Assembly (NCBI GenBank): GCA_003003925.1
Contig: PVWP01000004.1
Span: 210,153 to 274,152 of the forward strand
Length of the DNA stretch: 64,000 nucleotides
Reading direction: 5' to 3'
From: Aphanothece cf. minutissima CCALA 015
GTDB taxonomy: Bacteria; Cyanobacteriota; Cyanobacteriia; PCC-6307; Cyanobiaceae
The position numbers were made by a program, and so were the translations under genes. Positions 43,416-45,357 of the stretch are shown here, piece after piece. The notes below the pieces were generated by a model. It was given only the letters and a program-made list of their open reading frames with translations, ran no database searches and was not told where the DNA came from. Each line of letters begins with the position of its first letter. The stretch's first letter is position 1.

Positions 43416-43922
43416 TCAGGCGTCGCCTGCGGGCTGGCGGCCCGACCCGGGCCAGAGCCACACCGCCAGCAGCGCGACCCCCGTGCCGATGCAGGACTCC
43501 AGGAAGCGCAGCAGAGCATTCACCCCCGGACTCAGGGCCGGATCCAGGCTGCCGGTGACCATCACGACGATCACCGTGATCGCCGCCAGACGGCCGTGGC
43601 TGGGCACGTTGATGGCCGCACAGATCACCACCGTGGCGAAGATCGCCGCGGCCATGCCGAGGGGGTGAAAGGGCAGCTGCGTCAGGTAAACGGCGCTGGT
43701 GATGGCGCCGATCGCCGACCCCAGAATCCGCAGCGAGGCGGAGGAGGCCGCATCCTTGCGGGTGACCTGGGTCACGACGACGGCGGAGATCGCCGACCAG
43801 AGGCCGCCGATCTTGGGTAGGTAGCCCGGAAACAGGCTGGTGAACCAGAAGCCCAGGGAGTAGGCCACCAGGGCCGCCAGCGCGATCTGGGCCGGGATGC
43901 GCAGCCGTTCGGCGCTGTTCAT
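43416..43922 (-). CDS. FUSC-family membrane protein
   Basis: 168 residues with about five hydrophobic segments: a small member of the FUSC / aromatic-acid-exporter group. The [12 protein letters not shown] segment and the repeated inner-membrane helices match. It lacks the long cytoplasmic domain of full-size members. Its ATG overlaps the phoH stop (ATGA, 43919-43922), so it is the last gene of the rpsP-phoH-FUSC run. Substrate unknown. Confidence 0.75.
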
Positions 43923-44935
43923 GGGTCCGATCGGCTGGGGGTGCCATCGACCCGTTTCCTGGCTGGGGGGACCGGCGGGCGGGCATCGCGGCGGGCGTAG
44001 GCCTGCACCAGGCGCTGCACCAGCGGGTGGCGCACCACGTCGGCGTCGGAAAAGCGGCAGATCGCCACCCCTTCGACCCCGGCCAGGACCTGCTCCGCCT
44101 CCACCAGGCCGCTCAGCTGGCCCGGGGGCAGGTCGATCTGGGTGGTGTCACCGGTCACGACCATGCGCGAGTTCTCCCCCAGCCGGGTGAGCACCATGCG
44201 CATCTGGGCGCAGGTGGTGTTCTGGGCCTCATCGAGGATCACGAAGGCATCGGCCAGGGTGCGGCCGCGCATGAAGGCCAGGGGCGCCACCTCGATCACC
44301 CCTTTCTCCAGCAGCTGGCTGGTGCGCTCCTGACCCAGCAGGCCGTGGAGAGCGTCGTAGAGGGGACGCAGGTAGGGATCCACCTTCTGCTGCAGGTCAC
44401 CGGGCAGGAACCCCAGCCGCTCGCCGGCCTCCACCGCCGGCCGGGTCAGCACCAGCCGCTCCACCTTGCGCTCCTGCAGCATGCGTACGGCCAGGATCGT
44501 GGCCAGAAAGGTCTTGCCGGTGCCGGCGGGTCCGATGGCCAGCGTCAGGTCGTGGCGTTCGATCGCCTCGACGTAACTGTTCTGACGCAGGGTGCGGGGA
44601 CGCAGGGGCCGGCCGGTGACGCTCGTGGCCAGCACCTGGAGCCCCATGCTGCGGTGCTGGTCGGAGCGCCCCGTGTCCAGGGCCGTCAGGGCCGCCTGGA
44701 TGTCCACCGGTCCGATGGGCTCGCCCCGTTGCCACAGCGGCTCCAGGAGCTGGATGAGGGACTGCAGCCGCTCCACCTGGGATGTGCGGCCCCGGATCTG
44801 GAGATCGAGGCCCCGCAGGACGATCTGGGCACCCGTCAGCGCTTCGAGACGACGCAGTGAAGCTCCGTCCGTGCCGGCCAGGGCGATGGCGGCGGCGCTG
44901 TCGGGCAGGGCGAACGTGGAGGAGAGCTCGCTCAG
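43919..44935 (-). CDS. phoH: PhoH-family ATPase, apparent CTG start
   Basis: PhoH-like P-loop ATPase linked to RNA metabolism. GPAGTGKT (Walker A) lies about residue 134, FVILDEAQN is Walker B, and [14 protein letters not shown] follows. The first standard start codon in frame is GTG at 44776, but the 53 codons before it encode the expected N-terminal domain (LALAGTDG-like, then [13 protein letters not shown]). No ATG, GTG or TTG occurs in that stretch; upstream of 44936 the frame is low-complexity and soon stops. The CTG at 44935 forms a CTGA overlap with the rpsP stop, giving 338 residues, the normal family length. If GTG 44776 is used instead the protein is 285 residues. Confidence 0.85.
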
Positions 44936-45357
44936 GCCTCGGCGGCGGCAGGTTCGGCGGCAGCGGCGGCGGCTGCTTCAGCGGCCTCAGCGGCCTGCTT
45001 GGCGGCGGCTTCCTTGGCGGCTTCGGCGGCGGCGGCCGCTTCCTTCACCGCGGCAGCAGCGGCGGCGTCACGGGCGGCGGCCTGCTGCAGCTTGCCGACG
45101 GTTTCGGCGGGCCGGGTGGTCTTCTCGATCAGGCCGCCTTTCTCGAGCAGGCTGCGCACGGTGTCGGTGGGCTGGGCACCCTGACCTAGGCGGACACGGA
45201 TGGCCTCGGCGTCGAGACGGGTTTCCTTGGTGCGGGGGTTGTAGAAGCCCAGTTCCTCGAGCGGACGGCCGTCGCGGCGGGAGGTGCTGTTGGTGGCCAC
45301 CAGACGGAAACTCGCTTCCCGTTTCTTGCCGAACCGCTTCAGCCGGAGCTTGATCAT
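44932..45357 (-). CDS. rpsP: 30S ribosomal protein S16 with Ala-rich tail
   Basis: 141 residues from ATG 45357. The first 80 or so are S16 ([34 protein letters not shown]). The remaining 60 are almost only Ala, Glu, Lys ([18 protein letters not shown]), a helical tail also found in related picocyanobacteria. Upstream is ffh, 46 bases away; downstream phoH overlaps by four bases. The open frame upstream of 45357 is a shadow. Confidence 0.95.

Follow-up and report, generated by a model that had tools for sequence, protein, structure and literature searches.

Where does translation of phoH begin when its reading frame holds no canonical start codon over its first 53 codons? The question is raised by a 64,000-nucleotide (nt) stretch of the picocyanobacterium Aphanothece cf. 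minutissima CCALA 015 (contig PVWP01000004.1, positions 210,153 to 274,152, from an assembly of 3.22 Mb in 17 contigs), hereafter the window, in which rpsP, encoding ribosomal protein S16, is followed on the minus strand by phoH. A preliminary description of the window had proposed that phoH starts at a CTG overlapping the rpsP stop codon. Comparison of the junction across related genomes supported this interpretation. We propose that phoH is translated from this CTG by termination-reinitiation after rpsP, a reading that we hold with a probability of about 0.8.

The end of rpsP reads GCC GAG GCC TGA, and the CTG at 44935-44933 lies one base back from the TGA at 44934-44932, in the phoH frame. 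The start codon thus shares the TGA of the upstream gene on the same strand, in a CTGA overlap (44935-44932). From there, the frame reads CTG AGC GAG CTC TCC TCC ACG TTC GCC CTG CCC GAC. The preliminary description was accurate on this overlap and on the lack of any ATG, GTG, or TTG between the in-frame TGA at 44980-44978 and the GTG at 44776-44774 (codon 54). It also placed the upstream stop correctly, while the sequence between that stop and the CTG, which it had called Arg/Ala low-complexity, is in fact Arg/Cys-rich. Six 4-nt overlaps examined elsewhere in the window, a subset of its junctions, comprise five ATGA and one GTGA; the TTGA type that had been listed with them is absent from this subset.

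To locate the onset of coding constraint, we calculated the ratio of nonsynonymous to synonymous divergence (dN/dS) by uncorrected counting, using only those rows that align without gaps (three groups of 17, 7, and 4 out of 41 genus rows). Among the 17 closest genomes, dN/dS in the phoH frame was 0.17 for codons 2-10 and 0.21 for codons 2-53, versus 14.6 for the six codons immediately upstream of the CTG, i.e., coding constraint begins at the CTG in this group. In the other two frames, the same stretch of codons 2-53 gave 1.28 and 4.19. Codon 3 shows silent variation (GAG in 12 genomes and GAA in 5); therefore, coding begins before the ACG at codon 7. At codon 54, GTG serves as an ordinary valine codon and is missing from three of the 17 genomes (L008, L011, and L018). 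A group of four LNGLTT rows was less favorable, with no protein change in codons 2-8 and just three silent pairwise differences.

As a control, frames of the window were compared with the syntenic DNA of three relatives (G002, G014, and G010), leaving out frames with a body dN/dS above 0.35 or fewer than 50 aligned codons; rpsP was not in this list. Thirty-two frames had a constrained body, and six of them had at least 20 aligned codons upstream of their first canonical start in all three relatives. The upstream ratio was 0.24 for phoH, a value that includes codons upstream of the CTG, and ranged from 0.67 to 3.50 for the other five, so that phoH alone among the six comparable frames has a constrained upstream extension. 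Three further frames also showed low ratios (0.24, 0.37, and 0.00), but each relative contributed only 1 to 11 aligned codons to them, which is not enough for a judgment. Because the CTG is present in all 17 closest genomes and phoH is unique in the window control, the CTG junction is more than a chance arrangement. Three things are evident from the sequences themselves: the lack of a canonical start, a kept frame, and coding constraint that sets in at about the CTG.

The protein read from the CTG matches the Pfam PhoH family (PF02562) over residues 111-313 with an E-value of 3.3e-93 and 311.3 bits, against a gathering cut-off of 27. Its ATPase domain is closest to the solved structure 3b85 (PhoH2) by both sequence and fold, and more distant helicases come next in the fold search. 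It shares PF02562 and the 3b85 match with the PhoH/YbeZ family ATPases; what is unusual is the start codon and the coupling to rpsP. For the NCBIfam equivalog PRK10536 (PhoH), it scores below the cut-off (210 versus 380 bits). We built an AlphaFold2 model from 24 sequences, with a mean predicted local distance difference test score (pLDDT) of 77 and values under 50 for residues 168-185 and 300-338. In the model, the N terminus forms a strand (residues 3-9), two helices (13-20 and 22-34), two strands (37-41 and 44-50), and a helix (51-69), with 10-residue mean pLDDT values of 85-95 across residues 1-70. The order of these predicted elements, judged by eye, suggests a KH-like domain; a fold search with the PhoH model picked out no match for this part. 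The sequence before codon 54, which had been called conserved from the outset, is conserved and lies inside a predicted compact domain. A start at codon 54 would drop three strands and two helices of that domain, leaving just most of the last helix. The same genome also holds a second PhoH-related ATPase frame of 597 amino acids (L002; G000:C4:490160-490735), with 40% identity over 176 residues.

To survey the junction in relatives, we searched 42 genomes of the genus, 41 of which have this phoH (the draft G008 has only a distant paralog), and 300 genomes of the family, 287 with a match, from which 60 family loci were retrieved. Further loci were the 11 remaining genus loci and named loci, the best 80 of 545. 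Altogether, 192 loci were gathered; 191 pass the threshold for phoH, and in 190 rpsP lies upstream. Removing exact duplicates over the 360-nt junction left 158 unique junctions, among which close relatives may still count repeatedly. The sampled order consisted of this family alone. Among the named relatives, which are 88-95% identical, are Cyanobium sp. Aljojuca 7A6, Cyanobium sp. N5-Cardenillas, and Synechococcus sp. CCY 9618. After a motif-pattern search gave no match, the PhoH core was taken to start, by position and with no gaps, at query residue 10; the distances to it may be off by whole codons, the phase may not.

In 119 of the 158 unique junctions, a canonical start follows the rpsP stop and precedes the PhoH core. 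Eight others have no canonical start except a TTG at the overlap codon, and the last 31 have none at all. In 30 of these 31, a CTG overlaps the stop at which the rpsP frame ends, the exception being L029. Of the 41 genus genomes, 29 have no canonical start ahead of the core, and 28 of the 29 have the overlapping CTG (L027 among them is uncertain); a canonical start precedes the core in the remaining 12 rows. Two marine Synechococcus loci (L099 and L166) form a second CTG-only pair, in a separately supported clade of the tree. The preliminary description had proposed checking orthologs for an ATG or GTG at the very codon of the CTG. Across the 190 loci, the usual place of ATG or GTG is instead a few codons further downstream, and TTG is the canonical codon that does occur at the same position.

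In 140 of the 158 junctions, phoH is read in the frame one base back from the rpsP stop, and the distance from stop to core takes about ten values in the genus, from 23 to 188 nt, each of them 2 mod 3 (the 65-nt value comes from the uncertain L027), except in L029 and L031. Among the 107 rows from outside the genus that have a canonical start downstream, the first such start is found 11 nt past the rpsP stop in 38 and 14 nt past it in 45; it is in phase with the overlap codon in 91 rows and off phase in 16. An rpsP stop of TAA or TAG, which destroys the overlap start, occurs in six of the 140 in-phase junctions (not all of them independent), each with a downstream canonical start, and in none of the 38 in-phase rows that lack one. 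A likely history would be that an ancestral ATG or GTG, 11-14 nt past the rpsP stop and already sharing the frame of the overlap codon, disappeared in the ancestor of the genus or repeatedly within it, and that a separate loss in one marine Synechococcus lineage likewise left the overlap codon as the start.

Three genus loci stand apart. L027 and L029 come from sister genomes in which rpsP apparently ends about 15 nt before the conserved CTG-AGC; the L027 rpsP frame bypasses the earlier GCC TGA where L029 ends and continues to a second TGA, which is either a real frameshift or an error of the metagenome-assembled genome (MAG). In L031 (G007), 328 nt separate the rpsP stop from the core, which is off phase and has ATG candidates of its own, and the rpsP-phoH coupling seems to have been lost. 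The TTG-only overlap junctions (L066, L068, L088, L090, L109, L139, L142, and L147) are interspersed in the tree with relatives that have a downstream start, a pattern pointing to recurrent loss or gain of that start.

Why is the codon CTG? The overlap codon is dictated by the last rpsP codon, GCC giving CTG and GCT giving TTG, and the proposed phoH start is CTG because that codon is GCC. It is GCC in 38 of 38 in-phase genus rows (leaving out L027, L029, and L031), so that N in the NTGA junction is always C and never the usual A, G, or T. For comparison, GCC accounts for 175 of 285 Ala codons at rpsP tail positions -2 to -15. On the tree, the last codon shows zero third-base changes, versus 3 to 11 at positions -4, -5, -8, and -10 to -15, the nine other varying positions that the test covered (-2, -6, -7, and -9 are outside it). 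Synonymous divergence (dS) among the 17 closest genomes is 0.12 for codons 2-6 versus 0.45 for codons 11-53. A nearly invariant block of about 30 nt surrounds the CTG and may hold an initiation signal. Local folding near the CTG is weak, at -5.7 to -8.5 kcal/mol from -20 to +30 in 16 of these 17 genomes, compared with -15.0 to -17.6 kcal/mol at -90 to -40, -14.8 to -16.0 kcal/mol at +50 to +70, and -9.0 to -17.9 kcal/mol further downstream. The dip is also seen in relatives with an ATG, and it lends weak support to a start at the CTG. A hairpin predicted by alifold at +4 to +25 in the 17 genomes (GCGARC...GTTCGC) is not claimed here; by eye, its base pairing is disrupted in L006 and L009, and there are few compensatory changes.

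We suggest the following sequence of events. The ribosome completing rpsP would halt at the TGA; it, or its 30S subunit, would stay on the mRNA and re-initiate with formylmethionyl-transfer RNA (fMet-tRNA) one base back, on the overlapping CUG, to yield a PhoH of 338 residues. Termination-reinitiation requires an overlap or a very short distance (PMC10666635), and the rpsP-phoH junction has the same -4 nt NTGA geometry as the six overlaps examined in the window, differing by its CTG in place of ATG, GTG, or TTG. That initiation occurs at the CUG itself, that re-initiation is the route, and that a weak start would keep PhoH low relative to S16 are inferred from these patterns. A functional link of PhoH to S16 is plausible, since in Escherichia coli the PhoH-like YbeZ binds YbeY, an RNase of 16S maturation (PMC5101352).

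Several observations weigh against this proposal. CUG initiation complexes are reportedly less stable (PMC11497404), which fits a low-yield start, yet is also the main reason for doubt. One survey counted 2 switches to CUG among 61,358 ancestral AUG starts (PMC5622118), and a lack of GUS reporter expression, apparently from CUG constructs, is reported for tobacco chloroplasts (PMC9845219). At the junction, a GAGG lies one base away from the CTG, and there is no Shine-Dalgarno sequence at the usual distance. No unusual or CUG-favoring initiator tRNA was present among 40 tRNA matches in the genome, which have ordinary anticodons (two CAT) and form a set that looks incomplete. Constraint on codons 2-18 is weak in the LIxxG subgroup (7 rows; dN/dS 0.64). 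Eleven of the 12 genus rows with a canonical start before the core, the twelfth being L031, carry the in-frame overlap CTG in addition to that start, and L029 keeps CTG-AGC 15 nt past the rpsP stop without any overlap (core distance 84 nt). Finally, rpsP position -3 also shows zero third-base changes (24 rows), and the invariance of GCC is not specific to the CTG; because this position is unchanged too, the data do not single out the C, even though the block near the stop is conserved.

Other ways of producing PhoH must be weighed against initiation at the CTG. The real start could be a near-cognate codon just downstream, e.g., the ACG at codon 7 in the closest clade, where 15 of 17 genomes have it, or an ATC at codon 2 in the LIxxG subgroup, where ATC directly follows the CTG, as it does in L099 and L166. 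However, codon 7 is ACA in L004 and ACC in L018, codons 2-6 are conserved as protein with the silent GAG/GAA change at codon 3, the first predicted strand already begins at residue 3, and the CTG at -1 is the sole near-cognate position common to all 30 CTG-only phase-2 rows. We consider such a start unlikely. Separate initiation could also be dispensed with if a -1 ribosomal frameshift at the end of rpsP produced an S16-PhoH fusion, for which the one-base-back position of phoH in 140 of 158 junctions would be needed as well. By eye, no slippery site of the X XXY YYZ type is present in GAG GCC TGA; most relatives have a downstream ATG or GTG that requires no shift; and that start is off phase in 16 of 107 non-genus rows, with L029 and L031 likewise off phase. 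We regard a frameshift as very unlikely.

It is most improbable that PhoH of the genus starts at GTG 44776 with the upstream conservation as a relic, although this GTG is the first canonical start and is shared by 14 of the 17 closest genomes. Purifying selection acts on codons 2-53 (dN/dS 0.21), the predicted N-terminal domain would lose three strands and two helices, and the first canonical start is not fixed among the 17, being GTG at codon 9 in L011, TTG at codon 19 in L015, GTG at codon 39 in several, and GTG at codon 60 in L008. Many of the genomes are drafts, and a sequencing or assembly error might have erased a normal start; with an identical junction in all 17, including the single-contig G002, we give this explanation almost no credence.

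If phoH does start at the CTG, the codon may even be kept on purpose, as a weak set-point tying a low PhoH dose to S16 synthesis and initiation-factor activity, and an in-frame CTG or TTG overlap may serve as a second start in family members with a downstream ATG. One silent change in the last rpsP codon, GCC to GCT, would yield TTG, a better start present in other family genera, yet GCC is unchanged in the 38 genus rows counted, and the 30 nt or so around it hardly vary in the closest clade. We regard this idea as doubtful.

Bacterial CUG starts are usually regarded as rare and inefficient. Salmonella had 4 CUG starts among 26 new N-terminal proteoforms (PMC11005335), and a figure cited by PMC9845219 is 20 annotated CUG-start open reading frames in 69 bacterial genomes. 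The phoH case would differ in that 28 of 41 genus genomes show no evident start for a conserved gene other than CTG, which here stands in a re-initiation context. The eight unique TTGA rpsP-phoH junctions of other family genera are alike in gene pair, overlap codon, and lack of any other canonical start before the core, but TTG is canonical and CTG is not. No published report of a CTG-start phoH at rpsP was found, judged by titles and abstract openings, with subscription journals mostly uncovered. With a CUG as the apparent sole start of a conserved ribosome-linked gene in most of its genomes, the genus offers a natural test of whether re-initiating ribosomes accept codons that fresh initiation rejects. 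On this reading, gene callers limited to ATG, GTG, and TTG would lose the first 53 residues of this PhoH and most of the predicted PhoH N-terminal domain in the genus, and other genes at NTGA junctions are perhaps shortened likewise.

Table 1. Features of the rpsP-phoH region in window coordinates
Feature	Position	Strand	Basis
CTG, proposed phoH start overlapping the rpsP stop	44933..44935	-	17/17 closest genomes; common to all 30 CTG-only phase-2 rows
rpsP TGA stop	44932..44934	-	Sequence; Pfam S16 and TIGR00002 over 44935-45357
rpsP (ribosomal protein S16), Ala/Glu-rich tail	44932..45357	-	Pfam S16, TIGR00002
phoH, full length from the CTG, 338 residues	43919..44935	-	Pfam PhoH PF02562, E 3.3e-93; conservation
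Predicted N-terminal domain, residues 3-69	44729..44929	-	AlphaFold2 model
PhoH ATPase domain, residues 111-313	43997..44605	-	Pfam; 3b85 match by sequence and fold
GTG codon 54, first canonical start, choice of a standard gene caller	44774..44776	-	Frame inspection
In-frame TGA closing the phoH frame upstream	44978..44980	-	Sequence
Block of about 30 nt around the CTG, nearly invariant	44913..44942	-	Per-position counts, 17 closest genomes
Next gene, membrane-protein-like by eye	43416..43922	-	ATGA overlap with the phoH stop

Two minor observations concern the genomes themselves. Among the 40 tRNA matches listed (L193-L232, G000), Ile tRNA and Ala(TGC) are both missing; the assembly may lack some part of the genome, for instance an rRNA operon, or the listing may be incomplete. 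The phoH of L146, from a record titled as a Gammaproteobacteria MAG (NP980), groups among marine Synechococcus in the tree, and this locus is probably mis-binned.
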